From a virus, in the IMG/VR virus record IMGVR_UViG_3300042545_000561, positions 1-24,753 of that record: a stretch of DNA of 24,753 bases. The stretch is one strand, 5' to 3'. Shown here one piece after another: positions 2,932 through 23,027 of the stretch (positions are counted from its first letter, which is position 1; each line of letters opens with the position of its first letter). The translations under genes were made by a program, and so were the position numbers. The notes beneath the pieces are model-generated. The model saw only the letters and a program-made list of their open reading frames with translations. It was not told the origin of the DNA and did no database searches.

Positions 2932-2939
2932 TATAAATA
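2932..2939 (+). promoter_or_regulatory. T4-type late promoter box TATAAATA
   Basis: An exact TATAAATA lies 12 bases past the stop of the 1744 gene, in one of the only two sizeable intergenic gaps of the window, and about 100 bases before the 3039 start. In T4 this box is recognised by gp55 with sliding-clamp activation, and transcription starts a few bases downstream, here about 2945-2948. It would drive the 3039 fibre gene and probably the long gene run after it. No -35 element is expected for this promoter class. Confidence 0.7.
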
Positions 2940-2947
2940 CTAGTGAT

Positions 2948-2970
2948 TACAGAAAAAGTTTTTTTCTGTA
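2948..2970 (+). promoter_or_regulatory. Perfect 10-bp stem-loop at the predicted 5' end of the late transcript
   Basis: TACAGAAAAA (2948-2957) is the exact reverse complement of TTTTTCTGTA (2961-2970), with a GTT loop. The stem begins eight bases after the late promoter box, so it would sit at or within a few bases of the transcript 5' end. That position fits a 5'-stabilising hairpin better than a terminator, although the T-rich right arm could also act on read-through transcripts from the gene upstream. Confidence 0.6.
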
Positions 2971-2971
2971 T

Positions 2972-3034
2972 GGTCAAACTGTGGTAAACCCGCAATGCAA
3001 GGTGGTTAACCGTGAAACACGGGGTCTAAGGAGA
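2972..3034 (+). promoter_or_regulatory. Structured leader of the 3039 gene with Shine-Dalgarno
   Basis: Downstream of the first hairpin, GGTAAACC (2983-2990) can pair with GGTTAACC (3004-3011) with one mismatch. Alternatively CCGTG (3010-3014) pairs with CACGG (3018-3022) around an AAA loop. The two pairings share bases 3010-3011, so they compete. A strong AAGGAG at 3028-3033 ends five bases before the ATG. No known riboswitch class was recognised. A regulatory role is inferred only from the structure and length of this leader compared with the near-absent leaders of the neighbouring genes. Confidence 0.4.
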
Positions 3035-3038
3035 GCTA

Positions 3039-4091
3039 ATGGCTATTGGAAGAATTTCCGGTCAAATGCTCAAATCCAATCTAGTCAGAGATGGCGTAGA
3101 TTTAGCATTTGAGACTGACTTATTATATTTGGATGTTGTTAACTCTCGAATCGGAGTAAACAAACTAAATCCTCAACACGACTTAGACGTCAACGGCACA
3201 ACAAAATCTACTGATCTAGAAGTAACTAATCAATTTGACATTGGCAATATAACAGTCACTGGCAATACTATCAGCAGCGATCTCAGTACCATAACTTTTG
3301 CACCATCGGGTGCTGAACCAACTATCTATAATGCTAGATTAGTAGTAGATGACATTCAAATTCTGGGAAATACTATTTCTACAGAAGTATCAAATAGTGC
3401 GTTAGAACTACGAGCCAACGGTACAGGAATAATAGATATTTACGGTAACACTAACATCACAGGCAATCTTGATGTTACTGGAAATATCAATGCTACTGGA
3501 AATGTAACCATAGGCGGAAATATTGTGATTGGAGACAGTCTGTCTGATTCAGTGACCATTAATGCCAGTATTAATAGTGATCTAGTTCCTCAATTTGACA
3601 ACACAGTAGATCTAGGATCCGGCGCCTACCGCTGGAGAAACGTCTACGTCAATAATCTGTATACCAGTGTGTTAAATGTTACCATGCTGGATGTTGGTAA
3701 TCTCATGTTTAGAGACAATGAAATTACCAGCACCACAGGCCAAGACATAATTATAGACGGCAACGGTGCAGGTGGAGTTAGACTGGGGAATTTTCGCATA
3801 GTAGACAACGTTATAACCAATCTCAGTTCTAATGCAGTAACTGAAATTGCACAAACGGGAATAGGATATTTTAAAATTCAAGGAACAAATGGTTTTGTTC
3901 CTCCAGTGGGCAGTGATGCTCAGAGGCCTACCGCTTATGCAGTGCTAGGTATGACTCGATTTAATACTAATTCAAAAGCTCTTGAAATTTGGGACGGAAT
4001 TACCTGGGCATCCCCTGCAGGAGCTTCTGGAGCCGTTTCAGAAATTCAAGCCAACGAAATAGCAGCCACTTATGCGCTGATGCTAGGATAA
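3039..4091 (+). CDS. Tail-fibre-like protein, paralogue of the 1744 gene
   Basis: A 350-residue protein. The N-terminus (MAIGRISGQMLKSNLVRDG, then LAFETDLLYLDV) matches that of the preceding fibre gene. SRIGVNKLNPQHDLDVNGT (about 36-54) is a typical phage fibre segment leading into a beta-strand shaft with repeated TGN motifs (NITGNLDVTGNINATGNVTI, about 140-160). PQFDNTVDLGSGAYRW near 187-202 is the conserved DNT.DLG...RW element. The end has TEIAQTGIGY, TNGFVPPVGSDAQRP and MTRFNTNSKALEIWDGITW. The start is supported by AAGGAG and the N-terminal match to the paralogue. It is the first gene after the late promoter. It is probably a trimeric fibre or fibre-like subunit; the exact location on the virion is not known. 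Confidence 0.82.
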   Translation: MAIGRISGQMLKSNLVRDGVDLAFETDLLYLDVVNSRIGVNKLNPQHDLDVNGTTKSTDLEVTNQFDIGNITVTGNTISSDLSTITFAPSGAEPTIYNARLVVDDIQILGNTISTEVSNSALELRANGTGIIDIYGNTNITGNLDVTGNINATGNVTIGGNIVIGDSLSDSVTINASINSDLVPQFDNTVDLGSGAYRWRNVYVNNLYTSVLNVTMLDVGNLMFRDNEITSTTGQDIIIDGNGAGGVRLGNFRIVDNVITNLSSNAVTEIAQTGIGYFKIQGTNGFVPPVGSDAQRPTAYAVLGMTRFNTNSKALEIWDGITWASPAGASGAVSEIQANEIAATYALMLG

Positions 4092-4816: not shown

Positions 4817-7800
4817 ATGGCAGAATTTAAAATCAGTAGGATTAGATATACATGGAGAAATTCGTGGGGTACGACCACGGTATACAATCGTGATGATGTG
4901 ATAAGATATGGTGGATCTACTTGGATCTGCCAACGTCAACACACCGCCGGAGTATTTGCTGCTGATCAAGCATATCTAGCTAATCAAAACGACACAGAGC
5001 CAACCCCAGCTTGGTTTAAAATGACCGATGGCTATGCATGGAGAGCTACATGGACCGGTACTACTTTATATAATCCAGGTGATCTTGCTTTATATGGCGG
5101 AGTGATATATCTATGCGTTACTAGCCATACTTCACAGGCAACATTTGATGCTAGTTTAGCAAATTGGGCCGTTTATCTTTCTGCAGACAATTGGCAATCA
5201 GCATGGGCTCCTAGTACTAGATATGGTGTCGGAGATGTGGCAAGATACAACGGCATAGTCTATCGTTGCATAGTAGAACACACTTCGGGAACCACAGCTC
5301 AAGGTCTTGAGGTAGGAAACAATGATGCCCAAGATGACAGTACAGGTGAATTATGGCAGGTCTACCACGAAGGTATTCAATATGTAGGAGTATGGACCAC
5401 TGCTACAAGATACAGACTCAACGATCTTGTGAAATACGGCGGCAGTGTTCTTCGATGCGTGGTAGGACATGTAGCTGGAGCAAATATAACCAATGCTAAT
5501 TTTGTCACAGAATTGATTGGACAGAATTTTTATGTCTCATGGAACAACACAGTTTATTACGCAATAGGAGACGTAGTTAGACACGGTGGATATCTTTATG
5601 TAGCGTCCGCTAATAACTACGCCAGTGTAAGCCCTGCACAAGACACTACAAACTGGAATATACTATCCAAAGCAGTGAATTTCGTAGGGACATGGAATGC
5701 AGATGTTGATTATAAAACTGGCGATGTTGTGCGCCGAGGCGGAAATTTATACATATCCACAGCAGATACCACCCATGATGGTAGTTCATTAGACTATCTA
5801 GATGCAGGAAATTGGGAAGTAGTTGTTACATCTCAATCTTGGCAAGGTCCATGGACGCTAGGCAACACCTACAGTGTCAATGACATTGTGATATATTTTG
5901 GTAACACGTATTCCTGTAATTTTGAACACATTGCTGCCGATCAAAATCTTCCAGGAGACAACGGATCGGGTTTCTTCTATTGGGACCTAATTCTAGAAGC
6001 TGGACAACAGGCTGGTATGAGTCAGCGAGGGGATCTGCTAACATATAATCTTTCAAGAGCCTTGCAAGGAGACGGCAGCTCATTTGGCCCAACAGCGGTG
6101 CCTGTTGGTGAAGAAAATCAAGTAGTCATAGTTGGTGAGCAAAACAATGTTGACTATGCTTTCTGGGGTGATCTTGCTAGAGTGAAATATGTGAGTTTAA
6201 ACGGTGTTGATGATAACACAGATCCAGAACGTGGCACCAGTCAGTTTCTTCCTTGGAGAACCATACGTTATGCCTGCGAACAGGTAGATGACGGGTTTTC
6301 TGGCAATACTACTATTAAGGTTGCAGTGGGAGAATATGTAGAGATTACTCCTATCATAGTACCACGCAACACTGTAGTTTTGGGTGCAGAATTGAGATCC
6401 ACAACTATCAAACCGTCTCCATCGATTTTATCTACAGCAGATCGTCTCTATACTATTGCAGCACTAAATAGGATTTCTGGTATAATTGAAGCTATTGTAG
6501 CAGGAACAGCAATTAGTCCTGCAAAATCTGCAGGTAATATATTAGATCCCGTAATCGTAACTGGGCCAACCCCAGTTTCGTTTGATCCGCCTCAGTACGA
6601 TGAATTTGGTTTGGAAATTTTTGACATAGTGGATCAACCTCTTAGTACTAGCGGTGTTGCTGCAATAGCTATTCAGACTAAAATTGCCAACATGATATCC
6701 TATATTAATTTTTATGTTAATTCTTCAGGATCAAATCCCACATTAGTGGGCACAAACACTGCGGTAACAACCACAACATACACCAACACTGTTTTACAAC
6801 TAGAAGCCAACAAAGAATTCTTAGCCGCAGAAGCTGTGGCGTTTATACAAACAGTATACCCTGCATATGTATTTGACGCAGAATTATATAAAACAAATGT
6901 GCGTAGATATATAGACGCTTGGAAATATGACATAATCTATACTGGTAATTATAAATCATTGTTAGAAGCAAGATACTATAGAAACAATGTACTAGGCTGT
7001 ACCGACACAGAAGATATGTTTTATGTGAGAAACGCTACAGGCATTAGAAACTGCACATTAAAAGGACTTGAGTCGACACTAAATCCTCCTGTGGCATTTG
7101 ACCTATACCAACTTCCATTAGGAGGCGCATATGTGTCACTGGATCCAGGCTGGGGCCCTGCAGACACACGTACATGGATCGACTCACGCTCTCCGTATAT
7201 ACAAGGTGTGACCACTATAGGCACAGGCTGTGTTGGACAAAAAGTAGATGGTGCTCTGCACAATGGCGGCAACAGATCTATAGTGTCTAATGACTTTACA
7301 CAGGTACTCAGTGATGGCATAGGAGCATGGGTGTTAAATAATGCTAGAGCTGAATTGGTATCTGTGTTCTCATATTATGCACACATTGGATATTTGGCAG
7401 AAAATGGTGGAATTATTAGAGCCACCAACGGAAATAGTTCATACGGTACCTACGGAGTGATTGCAGATGGCATTGATGCCACAGAAACACCAGTAGTAGC
7501 AAGAAACTATACTAGAACACAGCAGGCCATAGTGGCAGCAGCATTTGCTGGAGACTTCGTTGACGAGATACAGATTTTAGAGTGGACCAACGCAGGACAA
7601 GACTATTCCAGTGTGGCAGCTGACTTTGTTGGAGCTGGTATCGACGCCGATGTGGTATTTGAAGATTTTCGAGATGACGCAGTATTTGAAGCTAGGATTC
7701 TAGATGCCAATGCAGGCACTGAACAAATTGCACAGGCCATAGGTGGTGGTGGATATACACTGGTACAGAACAATGCACAGACAGGCGATGCTACTACTAT

Positions 7801-10423
7801 TACCATAGCTTCTAATGATGCAAATTCTATCACAGAATATATTGGCATGCGTCTTATTCTTACCAGCGGTGCAGGTACAGGACAATATGGATATATTGCA
7901 GCCTATGACAATATCACTAAAGTGGTAACGGTATACAGAGAATCTGATGATCAACCGGGATGGGATCATGTGGTTCCGGGCAAACCTCTTACAATACCTT
8001 TGCTGACCAACACCACATATAGAATAGAACCTAGGGTGATATTTTCAGCTCCGGCATATTCAGCACAAGAAATCATAGTACCAGTTAACACTACATGGAC
8101 TGAAATTATCTATGGCGATACTACTGAAATTTATACTAACCTAGCAGTCAACGAATCAGGCACCGGCACAACTATAGATGTTGTAGCTGCATTGGCTACA
8201 TTCAATATAACCAAACAAGGCAGAGATTATACTATAACGATCAACAACGGTGGCGCAGGATATCAAGCCGGTCAATTACTGACAATTGATGGCGATCTCA
8301 TAGGTGGTATTTCTCCACTTAATGATTTAATTATTTTAGTTACCGATGTCAGCGATGACAGCACTAACTCAATATTAGTTGCAGAACAAAAAACCTACGG
8401 CACAGGTGAGGACAACGAAGCTGCTAGTGGAAGATTTGTGGTTGTTTCTTCAGGCGGAGCAGCAGCACTTTACAGTCAAGACGGTGTTAACTGGACTGAT
8501 TTTAATATGCCTAGTGCAGGCGATTGGAAGTGTTTGGCAGCAGGTAGAGTAACTTACCCTACAGTGGGTAATTATCAATTTGTAGCTATACGTCAAGGCA
8601 GTGCTGTTGCTGCCAGTTCTACAGATGGTATAAACTGGACGGCTCGATCTATGCCAGCATCTCGTCAATGGAATTCTTGCACATACGGTGGAGGCTTATT
8701 CCTTGCTGTAGCTACAAATTCTAACTCAGCTGCCTACAGTCTCAACGGCACTAGTTGGACTACAACTACATTGCCTACCTTTGGTGATTCTACACTTAAT
8801 GAATGGGTAGACGTGGCTTATGGCAAGAATAGATATGTAGTGATAGCTAATAGTGGAAACATTGCGGCTGTAGGCACATATAATATTGCTTTGGATACCT
8901 GGGCCTGGTCCGGTCGAATTATGGACGTAGTTGCAGACTCTAGTGCTAAAGATTGGGTCAGCGTTACCTACGGCAACGACAGATTTGTTGCGATATCCAG
9001 CACAGGAGATGTTGCCTACAGCTTTGACGGCGAGGACTGGCTGGCTGCCACAATGCCGTCACAAGACGGCAGTACAGCTCACAACTGGAAAAAGATTCGA
9101 TATGCACAAGGAGTGTTCTTTGCTATAGGTGACACAGGCGGCCGCGATTTGGGATTCGATCCATCGCCAGTTTCTACAAATTATGCAGCTCAGTCCGCAG
9201 ACGGTATAGTATGGACTTCAAGAACACTGGCATCTTCCAAAGAATGGGTCAGTGTAGCATTCGGTACCCCGTATACAGCGGCAGGTGATTCTACTGTAGG
9301 CAAAAGCACACCAATGTGGGTAGCTATAGACAACGCAGAAACATTCAACAAGATACAAACAGGCGCACGAGCCTTGGGACGAGTCACACTAAGTTCCGGT
9401 ATTATTCGCTCAATAAAATTGTGGGACCCAGGCTCAGGATACACAGAAGGACCTACTTGTACGTTAGTTGATCCCAACAACGGAACTGAAGCAGTCATCG
9501 AAGCAAGAACAGCCGACGGTGTTATAGGCAGCACCAGTTGGATTAATCGAGGACTAGGCTATCGTACTCTCAGTACCACAGTCACAGTTAACGGCAACGG
9601 ATTTGCAGATGTTATTCCTTCTGGCAAATTTATTGTCATAAACGATTTGACTATGTATCCAACTCTTGGCGCTAATTTAGTAATCACAGGATTACCTGAC
9701 TCATACACACTGGTAGCCCTTGAAGAATTAGGCACCACAGATAGAGGACTAGCTGCAAGAATACGTGTTACGCCAGAAATCAAAGTTCGTGATAATCTAC
9801 AACATCTCACAGCGATCACAATTAGATCACAGTTTAGCCAGTGCAGAATCACAGGTCACGACTTCTTAGATATAGGCACGGGTAATTTTGAAGAAACTAA
9901 TTATCCTGAATTATATGCAGGATTCTATACCCCTGCCCCAGAAAACGAAGTAGTGGAACTAGATCGAGGTAGGGTGTTTTATACCTCAACTGATCAAAGC
10001 GGTAACTTTAGAACCGGCGAGCTATTTGCTGTTGAGCAGAGCACAGGAATAGTAACTATTAGTTCTGATTTCTTTGATCTAGGTGGGTTATCAGAATTGA
10101 GATTGGGTGGTATTAGAGTTGGCGGCACAGGAGCGGTAGTTAGAGAGTTTTCTACAGATCCATTGTTCGTTGAGGATTCAAATAATATCGTTCCAACACA
10201 GCGAGCTATTGCAGCATACCTTGCTTCAAGACTAAGTGTTGGTGGCTCAGAAATTGCAGTAGGCAGTTTTATCGCTGGCACTATCTTAGTAGGTCCTGAT
10301 AGAATCAACAATGTCGCAGGTTTGCGTATTATAGTGCCAGTAAGAGCAGAATTTGATGGTGCAATTTCTGGAATAAGTGGTAGTATGCTAGCACAGACAA
10401 TGTTTTACAACTCTTTCAATTGA
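4817..10423 (+). CDS. Giant multidomain fibre or appendage protein, 1868 aa
   Basis: Domains in order. Residues about 12-375 hold seven repeats of W...W...T.Y..GDvV.YgG..Y.C...H, which resemble chitin/cellulose-binding CBM5/12 modules. A QRGDLLTYN linker follows at about 400, with YVSLNGVDDN and LPWRTIRYACEQV at about 458-492 as the entry of a pectin-lyase-like beta-helix. A helical module (LEANKEFL..., about 662-728) precedes the beta-helix core at about 734-882 (SLDPGWGP, GQKVDGALHNGGN, SNDFTQVLSDGIGAW). A linking beta region follows FRDDAVFEAR (about 950-1110). A beta-propeller at about 1200-1505 carries Asp-box-like motifs (SQDGVNW, STDGINW, SFDGEDW, SADGIVW). The C-terminus (about 1672-1868) has TGHDFLDIGTG, STDQSGNFRTGELFAVEQ and VPTQRAIAAYL. 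No catalytic triad was identified, so binding or structure is favoured over hydrolysis. It is a full-length paralogue of the 10462 gene. Confidence 0.85.
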   Translation: MAEFKISRIRYTWRNSWGTTTVYNRDDVIRYGGSTWICQRQHTAGVFAADQAYLANQNDTEPTPAWFKMTDGYAWRATWTGTTLYNPGDLALYGGVIYLCVTSHTSQATFDASLANWAVYLSADNWQSAWAPSTRYGVGDVARYNGIVYRCIVEHTSGTTAQGLEVGNNDAQDDSTGELWQVYHEGIQYVGVWTTATRYRLNDLVKYGGSVLRCVVGHVAGANITNANFVTELIGQNFYVSWNNTVYYAIGDVVRHGGYLYVASANNYASVSPAQDTTNWNILSKAVNFVGTWNADVDYKTGDVVRRGGNLYISTADTTHDGSSLDYLDAGNWEVVVTSQSWQGPWTLGNTYSVNDIVIYFGNTYSCNFEHIAADQNLPGDNGSGFFYWDLILEAGQQAGMSQRGDLLTYNLSRALQGDGSSFGPTAVPVGEENQVVIVGEQNNVDYAFWGDLARVKYVSLNGVDDNTDPERGTSQFLPWRTIRYACEQVDDGFSGNTTIKVAVGEYVEITPIIVPRNTVVLGAELRSTTIKPSPSILSTADRLYTIAALNRISGIIEAIVAGTAISPAKSAGNILDPVIVTGPTPVSFDPPQYDEFGLEIFDIVDQPLSTSGVAAIAIQTKIANMISYINFYVNSSGSNPTLVGTNTAVTTTTYTNTVLQLEANKEFLAAEAVAFIQTVYPAYVFDAELYKTNVRRYIDAWKYDIIYTGNYKSLLEARYYRNNVLGCTDTEDMFYVRNATGIRNCTLKGLESTLNPPVAFDLYQLPLGGAYVSLDPGWGPADTRTWIDSRSPYIQGVTTIGTGCVGQKVDGALHNGGNRSIVSNDFTQVLSDGIGAWVLNNARAELVSVFSYYAHIGYLAENGGIIRATNGNSSYGTYGVIADGIDATETPVVARNYTRTQQAIVAAAFAGDFVDEIQILEWTNAGQDYSSVAADFVGAGIDADVVFEDFRDDAVFEARILDANAGTEQIAQAIGGGGYTLVQNNAQTGDATTITIASNDANSITEYIGMRLILTSGAGTGQYGYIAAYDNITKVVTVYRESDDQPGWDHVVPGKPLTIPLLTNTTYRIEPRVIFSAPAYSAQEIIVPVNTTWTEIIYGDTTEIYTNLAVNESGTGTTIDVVAALATFNITKQGRDYTITINNGGAGYQAGQLLTIDGDLIGGISPLNDLIILVTDVSDDSTNSILVAEQKTYGTGEDNEAASGRFVVVSSGGAAALYSQDGVNWTDFNMPSAGDWKCLAAGRVTYPTVGNYQFVAIRQGSAVAASSTDGINWTARSMPASRQWNSCTYGGGLFLAVATNSNSAAYSLNGTSWTTTTLPTFGDSTLNEWVDVAYGKNRYVVIANSGNIAAVGTYNIALDTWAWSGRIMDVVADSSAKDWVSVTYGNDRFVAISSTGDVAYSFDGEDWLAATMPSQDGSTAHNWKKIRYAQGVFFAIGDTGGRDLGFDPSPVSTNYAAQSADGIVWTSRTLASSKEWVSVAFGTPYTAAGDSTVGKSTPMWVAIDNAETFNKIQTGARALGRVTLSSGIIRSIKLWDPGSGYTEGPTCTLVDPNNGTEAVIEARTADGVIGSTSWINRGLGYRTLSTTVTVNGNGFADVIPSGKFIVINDLTMYPTLGANLVITGLPDSYTLVALEELGTTDRGLAARIRVTPEIKVRDNLQHLTAITIRSQFSQCRITGHDFLDIGTGNFEETNYPELYAGFYTPAPENEVVELDRGRVFYTSTDQSGNFRTGELFAVEQSTGIVTISSDFFDLGGLSELRLGGIRVGGTGAVVREFSTDPLFVEDSNNIVPTQRAIAAYLASRLSVGGSEIAVGSFIAGTILVGPDRINNVAGLRIIVPVRAEFDGAISGISGSMLAQTMFYNSFN

Positions 10424-10461: not shown

Positions 10462-13400
10462 ATGGCAGAATTTAAATTAGGTAGAATTCGATTTGTATGG
10501 AAGAATACATGGACCGCGGCAACAACATATTATATTGATGATGTTGTTAGATACGGTGCCCGCACATATATTTGTGCAGTAGGGCATACTTCTTCTGCAG
10601 ATTTTAACACAGATTTAGAATACGGTCCAACTAAATGGAATCAAATGAGCGACGGTCAATCATGGACCGGCGACTGGAATGTCAGTACTTTCTACAAACT
10701 CAACGATGTGGTCAAATACGGTGGCCTCTTATACATCTGTAATGACAGCCACACTTCTGCAGCTACCACATCATCGGGGCTGGAAGCAGACCAAGCCAAA
10801 TGGACTGTGTATGCAGAAGGTTTTGATTGGAAAACTAGCTGGGCAACGTCTACTCGTTACAAAGTAAATGATCTAGTCAAGTACGGCGGATACACCTATG
10901 TGTGTAATCTGCACCACACTTCAGCTGCTACCGCAGCATCTGGTCTGGAAGCAGATCAAGCCAAATGGGACACATTTAATCCTGGTGTAGAATACAAAGG
11001 CACGTGGACCACTGCTGTTAGATACAAACTTAATGATGTGGTAAAATATGGTGCAGGATTGTGGATCTGTGCCATTCAACATACCGCAGATGCTGCGTTC
11101 CTAACCGACAGCACCGCAGGTCGTTGGACTCAGTTCACTGAAGGCACTGAATTTGAAAGCATCTGGGATCCAGCTACACTTTATCAACCAGGTGATGTTG
11201 TGCAATATGGTGGTAATCAATACATTGCAAAAACTGTGCATACCGATGCATTTGTTCCGTCAAGCGTTGGTTCGGCCAACTGGGATTTGTACACAGAAGG
11301 ATTTAAATTTCAATCTGCGTGGGCAGGCGGCACTTCTTATGAAGTAGGCGAAGTGGTTAGTTTAGGCGGTTACACCTATTTGGCAGTGCAAGATTCACCG
11401 TCAACCACCGTTACTGTTACAGCAGTTACAGCAGCCACTGATGAATTTACCATAGCCTCAACCACAGGCATAGTGGTAGGCATGGCAGTGAGATTTACTG
11501 GCACAACATTTGGTAATGTGTTTACCTCTGCCAGATACTATGTGAAAACTGTGGCAGCAGGAAATATCACAGTTAGTACCACTCCAGGTGGCACAACCTT
11601 TAACATCACTGCAGATGCTGCAGGCACAATGTCTGCTACAGTGTCAGCAGAACCACCAAATACCACATACTGGTCAAGACTCAATGCTGGTATCAGCTGG
11701 CAAGGTTTATGGTCAGATGACAGAGATTATTTGTTAGGCGATGCAGTAAGATTTGGCGCAAATGCTTATATCTGCTTGTTAGCGCATAGGTCCGAAGGCG
11801 ATGACGGATCTACTGTGGGTGCAGCAGGTGGCGGCCAAGCTAACAGCAGACCTGATCAAGACAGCACAGGTACATATTGGAGTTTATTAAGTGTAGGATC
11901 TGAAACTGATATTCTTTCAGTAAGAGGCGATTTAGTCTACTACGGAGGTTCGGGCCCTACAAGACTGCCAATTGGCCGTGAAGGACAGGTATTAACCTCT
12001 AACGGTATTGATCCAGAATGGGTTACTCTAGGCGAAACTGATCATACTTATTTTGTAGCAACTACGGGTGTTGATTTACCATCACCTGTGCATGGCAGAA
12101 CTTGGGATAAACCATTCAAGACTATTCGTTATGCCTGTGAACAGGTAGAACGTGGTCCTAGAAACCCAGATGCACGATATCTACTGGAACTGAATCGTGT
12201 GTTTATTCAACGCGAAGTAACAGAATTTATACAAAATCAGATCACTAATAACATTGCACCATTTACTTCTGCGTTTGTCTACGATGATTTTAAATGTGAG
12301 AGAGATGTAGGATTTACTCTAGATGCAGTAACATATGATCTATGTCATGGTGGTAACATCAAATCACGCGGAGTTGCTAATTCATTAATTGGCGGACTCA
12401 GCGAAGGTGAAACAGAAGCATATCCAGGATTGGCTATTGAATCAGACGAATCTGTAGCTGCCTATAACTACATGCTCACAGTGATTGGAAATGTGTTAGC
12501 ACAGACATCTCCAACCATAAACTATCAGACACTGAACGGTGACAACTCTACTGCCACAGTGGCTCAATATTTCAACAGCGATCTTACAACAGAAGCTGAT
12601 GCATTGGCTACAGTAACAGCAAGTGTTACACTTATTACTAATGCAATCACTGCTAGAGCAGCAGCAGTTACAGCCCCTGAGATAGCAGCAGCTATAGCTA
12701 GTGTACCAGCAAGATATAGCCCTAGTAATCTTATAAGAATTTCTACAGGCCAGTATCGCGAAACACTACCAATCATAGTACCAGAACAAACTTGTGTAAT
12801 TGGGGATGAACTGCGTTCAACTAATGCAGGTCCAGCAGGCAGTTTAACTAACAGATCCGATGCAGGCTACAGCGTAGGTGCATTGACTAGACTGCAAACA
12901 GTGGTTGACGAAATTGTTAGAGGAGCCAACGTTACAGAAAGCTCAGGAAATACAGAAATTCAAAGTGTAGCATTTCCATATGCCAGCACCGACGAAGCAG
13001 CAGATGCAGCACAGTTGGTCAGAGTCATGCAACATCAGATTGATTTCAAGATCAGTTCCACGTTCATGGTAAGTTCCGCTGACCCTACAGGATATAATTC
13101 CACATTCCTATCAGGATTTGGCGACGCAAGAACACTGCTACGTGAAAACAAAGAATTTATCAAAGAAGAAATCACTGCATTTTTAACAGTGAATTTTCCT
13201 GCAGTTAAGTACAGCAGAACCAAATGCAAACGTGATGTAGCATTTATTGTTGATGCGATGACATATGATTTGACTTATGGAGGAACTTGGGCCACTCTAG
13301 TAGCTGGCACAGCATATTTTGACGGTGACAATAGCACACAACTACAGATCGACAGCTCAGAAATCACAGCCACAGTGGCCGCCTATGCTAGATTGAAGGA

Positions 13401-16400
13401 TATAGTGCAAGATATTATTTCTAATACTGGAGTATTTAAGTCTACAGGCAACACTGCTACTCAATGGACAGACTTAACAAATTTGTCAGGTGGTTCAGCA
13501 GCTAGTGTCACAGTGGGTGCCTTAGTAGATATTATTACTAACATAATACAAGGTGATAGTACTGAGGCCACAACACCACAGATTACAGTTACTACTATAT
13601 CTGGTACAGACACACTTACCAGCAACAGTCATGGATTAAGTGTAGGCGATGCGATAATTCCAAGAGAAACTGGAAACGGGTTGACTAACGGTGTAAAATA
13701 CTGGGTGGTAGGCACAGTTAATACAAATACTTTCCAACTGGCAGCCACATACGGTGGCAGTGTGTTGGCTACATTCACCAACGGGGCTGGTATTAGCATA
13801 CCCGTAGAAGTTATAGATTACCCCACTGCAACTAATGCTGTTACATCAACCACTGCATTGATAGCTGCGGCTGTGACTCTAGACGCTGCACAAGAAACTA
13901 TTGTGCAAAATGTCGTAGATGATTTAAATGCAGTAGCATGGCACACTGACTTTGTAGTAGACGAAACTTCGTTGACCTCGACAGATTTTAGAATCTACGT
14001 TGGTAAGCATACTCTCGCACACACCTATGTCAGTGGTGGAATAGTAACGAAATCCAATGGAACAGAGTTAGCAGTTAGTAACTTTGTCTATAATAACTCT
14101 ACAGGATATGCGGTAGTGACTACTGCAACACACGGTTTAGCAGCAGGTGATATTGTTAACATAACAAGCATTACTGTATCTTGCTTATCGTCAGGTGGTA
14201 CAGCCTTTAATGCGATATTCCCAAGTGCGTACAAAACTGACGGAGTTACACCTAAGATTCGATATCTCCAAACCAAATGTATTAGAGATACTCGATTGAT
14301 CCTAGAAGCTGTGATGTTTGACTTTATGTTCAACAGCAACTTCAAAACTAGAGAAGCAGCATACTCATATCTAAGAGCTTCAGCAGCAGATGTGTTTGTT
14401 GGTAATCAAAAAACCATTACTAGAGACGCACTAACTAATGCCAAGACAGAAGCACTGGCCAACGTAGGCGGCGATGCTACAGCACAGGCTCGTATTGAAA
14501 CACTAATGACCATGGTAGATGATATTGTCTACGGTGCTACCAATGAAGGCAGTCGTTGTGCCACAGGCAATAGAATGGTTGACTATGCTGTGCTACAATT
14601 AGAGCGCAACAGAGACTATATTGTTGCAGAAATTGATGCTTACATTGATTCAACCTACACTACCGCGGTCACAGCAGCCACAGCAGCCACTGACTTGTTT
14701 ACCTGCACATCAACTGCTTGGATGACCAGAAACGCAGCTATTAGATTCACTGGTACTGTATTTGGCGGAGTCAATACCACAACCACTTATTATGTACAGA
14801 ATGTGGTCAGCTCAACTACTTTTAAGATTGCTACCACAAGAGATTCAAATACAGCGTTTGATATTGCCAGCGACGGTAGTGGGTCTATGACAGTGAGTCT
14901 ATTCTACAGCAGCACAGCCTGCCTCAGAGATGTTAATGCTTACATTGATGCACTAAAGTATGATTTGAAATATCCAGGCAACTACAAATCTAGATACGCA
15001 GCTAGATACTATGCAAACAGTGTGATGGGCAGCCTAGAAGAAGACATGTATTATCTCAGAGACGCTACTGGTGTTAGAGATCAAACTCTGCAAGGACTTA
15101 CTGGAGATCTGTTAGCCGAAAATGAATACGGTACCTCAAGAGTATCTGCAGGTGCGTATGCATCGCTTGATCCAGGCTGGGGCCCAGAAGATTATCGTAC
15201 TTGGATTATAACACGTTCACCTTATGTGCAGGGTGTTACTACTCTAGGTACAGCGGCTGTTGGTCAAAAGATTGATGGTGCTTTGCATAACGGCGGCAAC
15301 GACAGTATTGTTTCCAACGACTTTACACAGGTAATATCAGACGGTATTGGCGCTTGGATTACCAACAACGGTCGTGCTGAATTAGTGTCCGTGTTTAGCT
15401 ATTACGCCCACATTGCATATCTAGCAGAAAACGGTGGTCGAATCAGAGCAACCAACGGTAACAACTCATACGGTGATTTTGGATCCGTAGCAGAAGGTTT
15501 TGATGCAACCGAAACTGCAGGAACTGGAGTAGTTGACAACAGACTACAGTTTGAAGCAGTGATTGATCGTGTGATCACTGACGGATCTGCCTTGCTGCAA
15601 ATAGAATTCCAAAATGCAGGTATAGATTACACAGAAGTCAGTTATACACTCACAGGTGGCGGAAGTGGGCAAGTTGTTGAGAATGATGAATTCCGTGACG
15701 ATGCTGTATTTGAAGTTCGCATGTTGGATCTTGTTGATGACAGTACAAATGCCCCAGAGGCAGAAGGCAATCTTGGAGGCTTTGGTTACATAACCAACTC
15801 CAATACTGCACAGGGCGGCACTTCTACTTCAGTGACCATTGCTGCTACAGACGGTGAATCTAGCACTGCCTACATAGGTATGAAGATTGTGTTAACAGGT
15901 GGCGCAGGTGTTGGTCAGTTTGGTATCATTAACACATATAATTCAGGCACTAAAGTAGCAGGATTACTTAAAGAATCAGACGGCACAGCAGGATTTGATC
16001 ATTTGGTTGCGGGCACTGCAATTACATCGCCTGATGCTTCTACTACATATATTATTGAACCTAGAGTAACGTTCTCAGCGCCTGGATATGCCAGCACAGC
16101 AGTCACACTGCCAACTTCAGGCACATGGACCGCTGCGAAATACGGTGAAACTACTTCTGTGTATACTACGGTAACAGGAACATATGCAGGTTCGGGCACA
16201 GGAGCTACCTTCACAGTGATACGTAATGGATGGAAATATATACCATCTATTCAAGGTGCTGGAACAGGTTATACTAGATTAGAGACCATAACCATATTAG
16301 GTACCAGCCTAGGCGGCACTACAACTGCTAACGATCTAGTGATTACAATCACCGCAGTGAATTCTACCACAGGTGCTATCTTAGAATTTGATCACAGCGG

Positions 16401-18297
16401 TTACGGTATTGGTGGTAGATATGTGGCCTTAAGAAGCGGAAGCACAGTAGGTGCAACTTCAGAAGATGGAGTAGCATGGACTACTAGAGCCAGCTTGATG
16501 CCTAGCGCAGCAGCATGGTCAGCAATGACTGCAGGCCTGTTTGACGACAGTTCTTCTGTAGGCAAGGTCAGCAAATTTGTTGCCGTGGTTGGCACTAGTG
16601 CTAATACCACTGGAGCATACAGTGATGATGGTATTACTTGGTCAGCAACTAGCATGCAGACTTCTGCTACATGGGTTGATGTGGCTTTTGGTAAACAAAA
16701 ATTTGTAGCTGTTAGCAGTGATGTAACCACAGTACGAATCAGCAATGACGGTGAAAATTGGGATCAAACTGGTACATTAACTACCACTGGATTTACAGCT
16801 ATCGCTTACGGCAAAAACAGATTTGTTGCAATCAAGAGTGGTACCAACGTAACTAATTATGCTACATCGACCACAGTCACAGGCACTTGGACTGCAGGCA
16901 CATTGCCTTCTAGCTCAAACTGGAACAGCATCGCTTACGGTAACAACAGATTCGTTGCTATTTCAAGCACTAGCGGTACTATTGCTGCTTATAGTTTAGA
17001 CGGTATAACTTGGACAGCCAGCACATTACCAGCTACAGCAGTTTGGACTAAAGTCACTTACGGTCAGGGAGTATTCCTTGCAGTGAGCACAACTACAGCA
17101 GCAGCTACATCGCCAGATGGAGTGACATGGACAACCAGAACTACTTCTACGGCTGCTAGTGGTTTCTCAGCAATCACTTTTGGTAATAGAAATCGTTACG
17201 GCTTGTTTGTGGGAGTCGGTGGCAGCACAGGTGATGTAGCTACATATATCAGAACCGGCGCTACTGCTAGAGGTCGAGCCAAAGTGGCCGCTGACAAACT
17301 ATTCCAGGTCAATATCACAGAACCTGGATCAGGCTACGCTACTGTGCCTACAATCACATTTACCGATCCTAACAACACGTTTGAATCTCCTGTGACAGTA
17401 AGGAAAAACAGTGGTGTATTGGCTAATCCTAGTTTTGTAAACAGGGGCACACAGTTTGTCACAGGCAGCGGTGAAGTAGATACCGGTGATGGTTATTCAG
17501 ATCTGTTTCAACCTGGCACTTTTGTGGCCACTCGCAGACTTTTTGAACGTCCTACACCAGGTGCAAATGTGGTGTTCAGTCATTTACCTGACAGAACTTT
17601 CAAGTTAGTCAACGTGATTACATTCTTGGGCACTAACGACGGCGCCTACACAGCGTTTTTACAGATCAGCCCGCAACTAACCATATCAGAAGCGCCACCT
17701 GACGGCACAGATGTTACTACGCGACTGAAATACAGCCAAGTTCGACTTACAGGACATGACTTCTTAGACATAGGTACAGGCAGCTTCATCGATACTAATT
17801 ATCCAGGAATACCACTACAATCGGCAATTCCTGCAAATGAAACAGTAGAAAATGGTGGGGGTAGAGTGTTCTTTACAAGTACTGACCAAGACGGTAACTT
17901 CCGAGTTGGCGATTTGTTTGCCATTGAACAATCAACTGGTATTGCTACATTAAATGCAGATGCGTTTAATATTTCAGGACTGCAAGAACTTAACCTGGGC
18001 AACGTAACACTGGGAGGTGGGTCAGCTACAATCACTGAATTTTCAACAGACCCGTTCTTTACAGCAGATTCAGATAACATCGTACCCACACAACGAGCAA
18101 TCAAAGCATATATCGCCGGACAGATTGGCGGTGGTGGTGCCAGCTTGAATGTTAACTCCGTAACAGCAGGTAGTATTTTTATCAGCTCAAACGTGATAAC
18201 TACGGTAACAGCAGGACCAATCAAGATGAATGCAGTCTTTGAGTTCAGAGGCGGAGTCATAGGCATACCTATAGCATTCAATTACTTTTTAAGCTAA
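10462..18297 (+). CDS. Giant multidomain fibre or appendage protein, 2611 aa
   Basis: Same architecture as the 1868-aa protein but enlarged. Residues 12-443 hold seven CBM5/12-like W..W..Y..dvVkYGG..Y.C..HT repeats, with an inserted beta domain at about 317-396. VRGDLVYY at about 490 and FKTIRYACEQV at about 552 start the beta-helix. A helical L..NreFI..Ei...C.RDv..i.DA..YD module then recurs, with Cys at 612, 922, 1273 and 1487; the last copy is split by a second inserted beta domain (about 1403-1480). A third small beta domain with SNSHGLSVGDAI lies near 1043-1110. The beta-helix core at about 1525-1676 (SLDPGWGP, GQKIDGALHNGGN), an FRDDAVFEVR region at 1743, an Asp-box propeller (about 1987-2267; SEDGVAW, SDDGITW, SLDGITW, SPDGVTW) and the C-terminal TGHDFLDIGTG / STDQDGNFRVGDLFAIEQ / VPTQRAIKAYI domain complete it. 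A structural or host-binding role is inferred. Start supported by GGAG and by the MAEFK match to the paralogue. Confidence 0.85.
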   Translation: MAEFKLGRIRFVWKNTWTAATTYYIDDVVRYGARTYICAVGHTSSADFNTDLEYGPTKWNQMSDGQSWTGDWNVSTFYKLNDVVKYGGLLYICNDSHTSAATTSSGLEADQAKWTVYAEGFDWKTSWATSTRYKVNDLVKYGGYTYVCNLHHTSAATAASGLEADQAKWDTFNPGVEYKGTWTTAVRYKLNDVVKYGAGLWICAIQHTADAAFLTDSTAGRWTQFTEGTEFESIWDPATLYQPGDVVQYGGNQYIAKTVHTDAFVPSSVGSANWDLYTEGFKFQSAWAGGTSYEVGEVVSLGGYTYLAVQDSPSTTVTVTAVTAATDEFTIASTTGIVVGMAVRFTGTTFGNVFTSARYYVKTVAAGNITVSTTPGGTTFNITADAAGTMSATVSAEPPNTTYWSRLNAGISWQGLWSDDRDYLLGDAVRFGANAYICLLAHRSEGDDGSTVGAAGGGQANSRPDQDSTGTYWSLLSVGSETDILSVRGDLVYYGGSGPTRLPIGREGQVLTSNGIDPEWVTLGETDHTYFVATTGVDLPSPVHGRTWDKPFKTIRYACEQVERGPRNPDARYLLELNRVFIQREVTEFIQNQITNNIAPFTSAFVYDDFKCERDVGFTLDAVTYDLCHGGNIKSRGVANSLIGGLSEGETEAYPGLAIESDESVAAYNYMLTVIGNVLAQTSPTINYQTLNGDNSTATVAQYFNSDLTTEADALATVTASVTLITNAITARAAAVTAPEIAAAIASVPARYSPSNLIRISTGQYRETLPIIVPEQTCVIGDELRSTNAGPAGSLTNRSDAGYSVGALTRLQTVVDEIVRGANVTESSGNTEIQSVAFPYASTDEAADAAQLVRVMQHQIDFKISSTFMVSSADPTGYNSTFLSGFGDARTLLRENKEFIKEEITAFLTVNFPAVKYSRTKCKRDVAFIVDAMTYDLTYGGTWATLVAGTAYFDGDNSTQLQIDSSEITATVAAYARLKDIVQDIISNTGVFKSTGNTATQWTDLTNLSGGSAASVTVGALVDIITNIIQGDSTEATTPQITVTTISGTDTLTSNSHGLSVGDAIIPRETGNGLTNGVKYWVVGTVNTNTFQLAATYGGSVLATFTNGAGISIPVEVIDYPTATNAVTSTTALIAAAVTLDAAQETIVQNVVDDLNAVAWHTDFVVDETSLTSTDFRIYVGKHTLAHTYVSGGIVTKSNGTELAVSNFVYNNSTGYAVVTTATHGLAAGDIVNITSITVSCLSSGGTAFNAIFPSAYKTDGVTPKIRYLQTKCIRDTRLILEAVMFDFMFNSNFKTREAAYSYLRASAADVFVGNQKTITRDALTNAKTEALANVGGDATAQARIETLMTMVDDIVYGATNEGSRCATGNRMVDYAVLQLERNRDYIVAEIDAYIDSTYTTAVTAATAATDLFTCTSTAWMTRNAAIRFTGTVFGGVNTTTTYYVQNVVSSTTFKIATTRDSNTAFDIASDGSGSMTVSLFYSSTACLRDVNAYIDALKYDLKYPGNYKSRYAARYYANSVMGSLEEDMYYLRDATGVRDQTLQGLTGDLLAENEYGTSRVSAGAYASLDPGWGPEDYRTWIITRSPYVQGVTTLGTAAVGQKIDGALHNGGNDSIVSNDFTQVISDGIGAWITNNGRAELVSVFSYYAHIAYLAENGGRIRATNGNNSYGDFGSVAEGFDATETAGTGVVDNRLQFEAVIDRVITDGSALLQIEFQNAGIDYTEVSYTLTGGGSGQVVENDEFRDDAVFEVRMLDLVDDSTNAPEAEGNLGGFGYITNSNTAQGGTSTSVTIAATDGESSTAYIGMKIVLTGGAGVGQFGIINTYNSGTKVAGLLKESDGTAGFDHLVAGTAITSPDASTTYIIEPRVTFSAPGYASTAVTLPTSGTWTAAKYGETTSVYTTVTGTYAGSGTGATFTVIRNGWKYIPSIQGAGTGYTRLETITILGTSLGGTTTANDLVITITAVNSTTGAILEFDHSGYGIGGRYVALRSGSTVGATSEDGVAWTTRASLMPSAAAWSAMTAGLFDDSSSVGKVSKFVAVVGTSANTTGAYSDDGITWSATSMQTSATWVDVAFGKQKFVAVSSDVTTVRISNDGENWDQTGTLTTTGFTAIAYGKNRFVAIKSGTNVTNYATSTTVTGTWTAGTLPSSSNWNSIAYGNNRFVAISSTSGTIAAYSLDGITWTASTLPATAVWTKVTYGQGVFLAVSTTTAAATSPDGVTWTTRTTSTAASGFSAITFGNRNRYGLFVGVGGSTGDVATYIRTGATARGRAKVAADKLFQVNITEPGSGYATVPTITFTDPNNTFESPVTVRKNSGVLANPSFVNRGTQFVTGSGEVDTGDGYSDLFQPGTFVATRRLFERPTPGANVVFSHLPDRTFKLVNVITFLGTNDGAYTAFLQISPQLTISEAPPDGTDVTTRLKYSQVRLTGHDFLDIGTGSFIDTNYPGIPLQSAIPANETVENGGGRVFFTSTDQDGNFRVGDLFAIEQSTGIATLNADAFNISGLQELNLGNVTLGGGSATITEFSTDPFFTADSDNIVPTQRAIKAYIAGQIGGGGASLNVNSVTAGSIFISSNVITTVTAGPIKMNAVFEFRGGVIGIPIAFNYFLS
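10660..10990 (+). repeat. 165-base tandem repeat within the N-terminal binding modules
   Basis: Repeats two and three of the 2611-aa protein share GLEADQAKW preceded by HTSAAT..SG, with TGGAAGCAGA at 10781 and again at 10946, exactly 165 bases (55 codons) apart. The flanking Y K.NDvVKYGG codons also align at this spacing. The DNA-level similarity, with several third-position differences, points to a fairly recent internal duplication. The other modules are much more diverged. Confidence 0.7.
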
Positions 18298-21934: not shown

Positions 21935-21962
21935 AGTATTGTGCTGGTAACAGCACAATACT
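21935..21962 (+). terminator. Perfect 12-bp hairpin with GTAA loop after the fibre cluster
   Basis: AGTATTGTGCTG (21935-21946) and CAGCACAATACT (21951-21962) are exact reverse complements around a GTAA (GNRA-type) loop. The hairpin starts eight bases after the chaperone stop. No U-run follows (next bases are CAACGCTCGC), so it is not a standard intrinsic terminator. It may act as a weak terminator or as a 3'-end protecting structure. Its place at the boundary of the structural and enzyme genes supports a transcript end. Confidence 0.6.
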
Positions 21963-22002: not shown

Positions 22003-22010
22003 AATAAATA
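22003..22010 (+). promoter_or_regulatory. Late-promoter-like box AATAAATA before the glycosyltransferase
   Basis: AATAAATA fits the relaxed late box (N)ATAAATA and lies 30 bases before the 22041 start, downstream of the hairpin. A start near 22016-22018 would keep the AAAGG ribosome site (22025-22029) in the transcript. It would serve the two enzyme genes as a separate unit. Confidence 0.5.
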
Positions 22011-22038
22011 TCGTACTAGATAGCAAAGGTTACGATAT
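22008..22038 (+). promoter_or_regulatory. 8-bp inverted repeat spanning promoter box and start region
   Basis: ATATCGTA (22008-22015) and TACGATAT (22031-22038) are exact reverse complements separated by 15 bases holding the AAAGG site; the right arm ends two bases before the ATG. It could be a protein-binding operator overlapping the promoter, or a hairpin formed only in read-through RNA. An 8-bp match can also occur by chance. Confidence 0.35.
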
Positions 22039-22040
22039 CA

Positions 22041-23027
22041 ATGAAAAAAGCATTTTTTATAAATGGCGGCGCAGGTCGAGTACTATGCGCCATTCCCGCA
22101 CTAGAGTACTATGTTAAAAACACTGATCCAACAGCAGTCATTGTTGTTGAAGGTTGGATTGATCTATATTTAACCAGCAAAACATTAGCAAATAATGTGC
22201 ATCATGCTACAAACCCAGATCTTTTTGAAAAATTAAAAGATAGAGAAATCATAACTCCCGAACCGTATAAACTAAACGCATACTTTACTCAAAGATGCAA
22301 TCTTGTGCAGGCGTTTGACATGTTGATCAACTACGATGTTCCGCCTGAACTTATCCCAGAAACCAAAGAATATGATATTTTTATTGGCAAAAAGGATATT
22401 GCACAAGCAAACGAACTAGTCAATGAAGCTAGAAATCATTTTAAAAAGCAACAAGTAGTAATCTTCCAACCATTTGGAAAAACAGCTGGATTACAGGGCA
22501 ACACCATCATTGACGAAAGTGGTAGATCATTCGAAGTTGATGATATTATAAAAATACTTGAAGAACTGAATAAAAATTACGCTGTTATAATGATGAGCGA
22601 GTTAAAAATTCCTGGAAACAAAGCATTAGGGGTAATGGTACCGGAAAGCGTTAGTCTTTTACAATGGACTGCAATTATCAATGCTGCTGATTATTTCTTG
22701 GGCTGCGACTCAGTGGGACAGCATATTGCACATGCCTTAAAGAAACCGGGCACAGTGGTTATAGGCGGTACATTCCCTGAAAACATTTCGTATCCTAGTA
22801 GCAGTACACTTACTATAATCGATAACGGCAAAGACGAAAGAAAGTATTCTCCAATAAGAGTTGCGATAGACATTAGGATTGATAGACACAATGAAAATCT
22901 AATGGTGCTCAATGACGAAACTATTAAGACAATTACCAACGGGATTAAAACTACATTGAGTAAAACTGCCAAGGCATATGCTGAACCCAAACAAGCTGCT
23001 GGGTGTGCTGCACCCGGCTGTGCTTAA
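22041..23027 (+). CDS. GT9-like glycosyltransferase (heptosyltransferase fold)
   Basis: A 328-residue protein with a GT-B style layout. The N-terminal motif FINGGAGRVLCAIPALEYY (6-24) resembles the G.iGD.l..iPal.. loop of ADP-heptose-type transferases, with Arg13 where Asp is usual. The second half opens with VVIFQPFGKTAG (138-150), then a D-D-I-I-K-I-L helix, VIMMSELKIPG, and the diagnostic nucleotide-sugar side motif AADYFLGCDSVGQHIAHAL at about 215-233 (GCDSVGQH 221-228). PGTVVIGGTFPENISYP follows, as in GT9 proteins. It would move a sugar from a nucleotide donor to an unknown acceptor. There is no signal peptide, so it acts in the cytoplasm. An odd C-terminal tail, AAGCAAPGCA, carries two Cys. 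The pair with the carbamoyltransferase 23 bases downstream suggests a shared glycan pathway. Substrate is not predictable here. Confidence 0.68.
   Translation: MKKAFFINGGAGRVLCAIPALEYYVKNTDPTAVIVVEGWIDLYLTSKTLANNVHHATNPDLFEKLKDREIITPEPYKLNAYFTQRCNLVQAFDMLINYDVPPELIPETKEYDIFIGKKDIAQANELVNEARNHFKKQQVVIFQPFGKTAGLQGNTIIDESGRSFEVDDIIKILEELNKNYAVIMMSELKIPGNKALGVMVPESVSLLQWTAIINAADYFLGCDSVGQHIAHALKKPGTVVIGGTFPENISYPSSSTLTIIDNGKDERKYSPIRVAIDIRIDRHNENLMVLNDETIKTITNGIKTTLSKTAKAYAEPKQAAGCAAPGCA
22998..23018 (+). other. GC-rich stem-loop inside the 3' end of the glycosyltransferase gene
   Basis: GCTGGGTG (22998-23005) pairs with CACCCGGC (23011-23018), including one G-U pair, around TGCTG. It encodes most of the Cys-containing tail. 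No U-run follows. It could lower read-through into the carbamoyltransferase or protect RNA. Its GC-rich look contrasts with the AT-rich surroundings. Confidence 0.4.

Follow-up and report, generated by a model that had tools for sequence, protein, structure and literature searches.

A conserved leader RNA with a predicted pseudoknot opens the fibre transcript of uncultured T4-type phages

The window, by which we mean the whole stretch of viral DNA analysed here (24,753 nucleotides, a 24.8-kb fragment), carries on its plus strand a T4-type late promoter, TATAAATA, at positions 2932-2939, just where the first-pass annotation had located it. It is followed by a predicted transcription start, a G at 2945, and by the first gene of the transcript at 3039-4091, which encodes a fibre-like virion protein of 350 amino acids belonging to what we call the GRISGPLL family. 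Two giant open reading frames lie further along the presumed transcript, at 4817-10423 (1868 amino acids, matching tail fibre families) and at 10462-18297 (2611 amino acids).

By itself TATAAATA is not rare: the window has two copies where 2.0 are expected. Among the matches listed, a TAAATA promoter precedes the core of the leader RNA in all 199 loci that were found by DNA pattern and have enough upstream DNA, as compared with 4% of random stretches. The start is placed at 2945 because T4 late promoters span -13 to -6 (PMC1524935), one base from the earlier estimate of 2946, and 133 of 139 representative leaders have a purine at exactly this distance. The arrangement is that of a T4-type late transcript, a TATAAATA-like promoter with a predicted start about 6 nt downstream. 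The gp23 capsid gene (PF07068), which is not expected within a fragment of this size, was detected in 17 of 18 large leader-bearing records, and the phages that carry the leader are therefore T4-type. The region 2945-3038, with its start predicted, is the 5' untranslated leader of a late mRNA of the T4 type. The first-pass annotation had considered such a leader unusual on the grounds that other genes here are almost leaderless. This is correct for the window, where the other late promoters are followed by leaders of 13-25 nt, but relatives have a second long leader, the Rfam family freshwater-2; when the late leaders of relatives were listed, the long ones were either the RNA studied here or freshwater-2.

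The leader of the window can be divided into four parts. The first is a 5'-terminal hairpin, P1 (2948-2970), whose arms form a perfect inverted repeat of 10 bp, TACAGAAAAA/TTTTTCTGTA (2948-2957 and 2961-2970), around a 3-nt loop (2958-2960), eight bases past the promoter. The second is a predicted H-type pseudoknot. A nearly invariant ACUGUGGU (2978-2985; consensus of the relatives found by protein search) holds the 5' strand of stem S1 and part of loop 1, which has three bases in the window. The S1 strand UGUG (2980-2983) pairs with CGCA (2991-2994), and the stem S2 strand AACC (2987-2990) pairs with GGUU (3004-3007) across loop 3, AUGCAAGGU, of 9 nt (2995-3003). Since no base separates the 5' strand of S2 from the 3' strand of S1, the two stems can stack. 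Two bases after the pseudoknot comes the hairpin P4, CCGUG-AAA-CACGG (3010-3022), and last the Shine-Dalgarno sequence AAGGAG (3028-3033), which lies outside every conserved helix. The perfect stem, CCGTG (3010-3014), CACGG (3018-3022), AAGGAG, and two further segments, GGTAAACC (2983-2990) and GGTTAACC (3004-3011), had all been correctly positioned in the first reading. Folded alone, the window sequence beats its shuffles only weakly (z = -1.34 and -1.45) and would prove nothing; the argument for the fold is comparative.

A search with the 350-aa protein recovered 80 IMG/VR loci with 64-99% identity, whose upstream regions keep the same layout in altered sequence. A covariance model (R1) found the leader in all of the protein-found loci searched. 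Of 30 phage records 28 have it once, and contigs of 281, 280, and 199 kb are among these; one of the two misses (G027) is a contig that begins 23 bases 5' of the gene, so that the leader lies beyond its edge. Single copies also occur in another 18 virus records, the largest mentioned being 332 kb, and we never found more than one copy in a virus record, in records of up to 332 kb. Two scans of IMG/VR with short DNA patterns, both blind to the protein, each gave at least 120 loci. Promoter and gene together gathered at least 196 distinct sequences from public contigs, nearly all in IMG/VR; one of these sequences is a paralogue that lacks the RNA. The same folded RNA opens the fibre message in hundreds of uncultured T4-type phages.

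Among bacterial genomes, 59 matches to the patterns included only two true leaders, both with the gene and both in a single Neomarinimicrobiota MAG (PBPT01000016.1 and PBPT01000082.1; our L424 and L468). These contigs are probably pieces of large phage DNA of the T4 type that were binned as bacterial. In cultured phages the leader had no DNA match, and one further search there gave chance-level matches only. The relatives of the downstream gene in cultured phages are distant cyanophage proteins; in the two cyanophage records checked, 15-30 nt separate the gene start from the preceding gene, so that a leader is absent.

The gene behind the leader is always the same one. Among the matches listed, all 187 sequences compared (186 downstream open reading frames and that of the window) belong to one family, even though the RNA had been found by DNA pattern only. 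Its members begin with an N-terminus like MAxGRISGPLLKxNLxRxGVDLAFETDLLYLDV and reach nearly 4000 amino acids. Several GRISGPLL paralogues occur in phages of this group (L178:391, L187, L329, L331, and others), and the leader stands before one only. The 350-aa product has no Pfam domain, hence no RNA-binding one, and its predicted structure (pLDDT 62.9) is too poor to judge.

Support for the fold comes from the way the sequences vary. In an alignment of 100 leaders, standard pairs fill 94.3% of cells and 17 of 21 pairs vary on both sides, with a covariation score of 0.457 compared with 0.143 ± 0.007 after shuffling and no more than 0.105 with slid partners; the slid-partner controls weigh more, because kinship among the sequences inflates tests by shuffling. 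Part of S1 and S2 was fixed by the pattern scans, so conservation counts for these stems rest on the protein-found set (A3), which is free of DNA-pattern bias and gives 94.7% paired cells and a score of 0.441 compared with 0.166 shuffled. Because alignments fitted to a covariance model lean toward that model, raw sequences were also parsed without it, and this reading succeeded for 194 of 196 leaders. A covariance search was the check proposed in the first-pass annotation, with absent covariation as an outcome that would speak against its reading; the covariation proved strong.

Each helix contributes to this signal. In P1 all nine modelled pairs covary and 93% of cells are paired: the arms vary freely in sequence yet stay paired across the family. 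G-U combinations outnumber A-C by 82 to 12 in this hairpin, so that the functional RNA is the transcribed plus strand, that is, the mRNA. Its first pair is usually 8 nt past the promoter, at about +3, and its median stability is -8.4 kcal/mol; the P1 loop reads GACCA in most relatives and has been lost in the close clade of the window. S1 covaries (U-A to A-U, and among U-G, C-G, and U-A) and has 87% of cells paired, as opposed to 25-62% with partners slid, although its fourth pair (2983-2991) is frequently mismatched in relatives. The parsed leaders use six S2 sequences (AACC, AACU, UACC, AGCC, GGGC, and GGAC), exactly complementary to the partner strand in 192 of 194, and the pair adjoining S2 is A-A in most leaders and C-G or U-A in others. 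Loop 3 has 9 nt in 106 parsed leaders, and most of the others have a longer loop with one or two inserted hairpins (P3), often capped by GNRA or UUCG. P4, with 92-94% of cells paired, exchanges CCGUG/CACGG for CGGUG/CACCG and GGG/CCC. We therefore describe the leader, on comparative sequence evidence, as a conserved structured RNA with a 5' hairpin, a predicted H-type pseudoknot with abutting stems, a short hairpin, and an unsequestered Shine-Dalgarno sequence.

One subtype of the leader (L061, L062, L065, L303, L317, L325, and similar) has GGGACAGGAUCCC in place of P4; its loop, ACAGGAU, may recall CsrA sites. We also considered a loop-loop pseudoknot between GACCA and UGGU, which is pairable in 93.8% of leaders. 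Both sides are nearly invariant, so they show no covariation; in addition it overlaps S1, UGGU is absent in C-type leaders, and the clade of the window has lost the loop, which makes this interaction unlikely.

No Rfam 15 family matches the leader at permissive E-values, manA, wcaG, preQ1, and SAM-II included; the window gave three sub-threshold matches at chance level (E 0.34-4.8), far under the gathering scores. Structured phage leaders are already known (manA, wcaG, freshwater-2, and gene 32), and the present family itself is undescribed in Rfam 15 or in the literature searched, where we found no paper naming freshwater-2 or this leader.

Of these, freshwater-2 (RF02980) is found in the same phages. 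It does not match the leader at E<=5 (window and L018) or E<=1 (others), although several of the loci searched have freshwater-2 matches at other positions. Among 40 leader-bearing records, 35 contain it at E<=0.01, 18 of them above the gathering score. It usually follows gp23 closely and typically lies 4-5 kb upstream of our leader. In the nearest relatives of the window it scores 34.6 bits, under the cut-off of 49.9, and the corresponding site would fall about 1 kb before the window starts. In the 35 records, and in four loci (L063:1083-1171, L031:1241-1310, L014:869-947, and L024:1089-1165), freshwater-2 stands behind a TAAATA late promoter and before a gene beginning MGRPLRK near gp23, which makes its setting as a late leader of phages clear. 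The two RNAs are alike in directly following such a promoter, in starting with a hairpin and ending with a Shine-Dalgarno sequence and ATG, and in length; they differ in sequence, in fold (the freshwater-2 model has no pseudoknot), and in the gene that follows. Its presence in the same phages suggests a possible setting and function for a family that Rfam lists as a candidate cis-regulator.

Other comparisons are with known phage leaders. That of T4 gene 32 contains an H-type pseudoknot used for autogenous repression, and it resembles ours in coming from a T4-type phage and in having stacked stems 5' of the start codon (PMC3014915). Gene and sequence are different, and our leader adds a hairpin at the 5' end and another between pseudoknot and Shine-Dalgarno sequence; the latter, P4, takes the place of the A+U-rich UUAA repeats that cover the ribosome site of gene 32. 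Autoregulation belongs to gene 32 and is for our leader a candidate mechanism only. The gene 43 operator is a simple leader hairpin whose conserved loop is read by the phage polymerase itself (PMC3014915). It shares with our leader a hairpin with a conserved loop, whereas ours is late, composed of several elements, and has a putative binder. manA and wcaG (RF01745 and RF01761) are likewise structured 5' leaders in T4-like cyanophages and are riboswitch candidates (PMC2864571), but they mostly occur with metabolic genes and have no covariance-model match to the leader studied here.

What could such a leader do? We favor, with a probability of about 0.42, that it controls expression of the fibre operon post-transcriptionally through a specific trans-acting protein, with the 5' hairpin shielding the mRNA. 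P1, free in sequence, would shield the long mRNA from decay that depends on the 5' end, and a protein, either a virion protein acting in autogenous feedback or an RNA-binding protein of phage or host, would recognize the pseudoknot core, which contains invariant bases. Binding would adjust ribosome entry or the life of the mRNA, so that fibre output is matched to assembly. The linkage of one RNA to one gene is typical of autogenous leaders, as with those of ribosomal proteins. A trans-acting protein, possibly autogenous, is favored because of this exclusive linkage, the conserved unpaired bases, and the precedent of T4 gene 32 (PMC3014915), and an added role in mRNA protection because the terminal hairpin varies freely. 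Sequestration of the ribosome binding site by the leader found no support in nested folding: accessibility of the Shine-Dalgarno sequence is 0.457, against 0.444 with the upstream leader shuffled, in a model without pseudoknots. A simple on/off mask of this site is unlikely, as it lies outside the conserved helices and its modelled accessibility is independent of the upstream leader, pseudoknots being outside the model.

The leader might instead, with a distinctly smaller probability, be a passive stabilizer and insulator, in which hairpin and pseudoknot protect the long fibre mRNA and keep the presentation of the ribosome site constant. Nearly every leader indeed opens with a stable hairpin of free stem sequence at about +3, at the 5' terminus as in stabilizers of the ompA type, the putative transcript is exceptionally long, other late leaders nearby mostly have 25 nt or less, and the accessibility of the Shine-Dalgarno sequence is neutral. 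The invariant unpaired residues near ACUGUGGU and GCAAWG, and the GACCA loop conserved in most relatives, would be superfluous for protection alone, and the conservation of unpaired bases speaks against a role that is passive only.

Rather doubtful is a small-molecule riboswitch, with the pseudoknot binding a metabolite that reports the state of the host and gating translation. Small H-type pseudoknots with an A-rich loop 3 near the Shine-Dalgarno sequence are similar in size to known small riboswitches. T4-like cyanophages also carry the riboswitch candidates manA and wcaG (PMC2864571). However, the leader shows no evident expression platform (no terminator, no conserved anti-Shine-Dalgarno sequence, and a Shine-Dalgarno sequence left unsequestered in nested folding), the one gene family that follows it encodes a virion protein rather than a metabolic one, and no Rfam riboswitch matches. 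Very improbable is a self-cleaving ribozyme, or a site at which processing shortens the 5' end: the conserved pseudoknotted core is ribozyme-like in size, but no Rfam ribozyme matches, and cleavage at the extreme 5' end would remove the leader only.

Also very improbable is the proposal of the first-pass annotation that two competing, mutually exclusive pairings in the leader time fibre production. In the window GGTAAACC could pair with GGTTAACC, except for one A-A, in a pairing that overlaps CCGTG. The overlapping part, the extra GGU/ACC pairs, shows no two-sided change and fails in 16-23% of sequences per pair, whereas the compatible pairs, AACC/GGUU (2987-2990/3004-3007) and CCGUG/CACGG (3010-3014/3018-3022), are conserved together. 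The annotation was right that the late fibre transcript begins with a structured leader, and had missed S1 (UGUG/CGCA), AACC/GGUU being stem S2 of the pseudoknot. To an element acting as DNA (an origin, recombination, or packaging site) we give next to no weight, for although there is one copy per genome in a fixed place, the G-U excess in P1 is expected only if the strand acts as RNA, and the element always follows a late promoter and precedes a Shine-Dalgarno sequence and start codon.

Control by a trans-acting protein, our preferred reading, would extend the usual account of T4-type late genes, which are explained mainly by their promoters: the leader suggests that virion output is tuned by RNA too. 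More speculatively, and we think this rather unlikely, late virion transcripts might each carry a dedicated RNA sensor read by a specific factor, the pseudoknot on the fibre operon and freshwater-2 near the capsid gene, to give the right ratios of parts; if true, these phages would have a level of late-gene control that is not known from T4 itself. In any case the leader offers a compact RNA for questions of autogenous control, mRNA protection, or ligand sensing.

Two minor features lie near the other end of the window. Between the fibre genes and a glycosyltransferase-like gene, a strong hairpin lies at 21935-21962; its stem of 12 bp, A-GTATTGTGCTG/CAGCACAATAC-T, closes a GTAA loop and has no U-run 3' of it, and the hairpin could end or protect the fibre mRNA. 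At 22003-22041, a TAAATA-type late promoter precedes the glycosyltransferase-like gene (328 amino acids, 22041-23027) and is followed by ATCGTA...TACGAT, which could form a short terminal hairpin.
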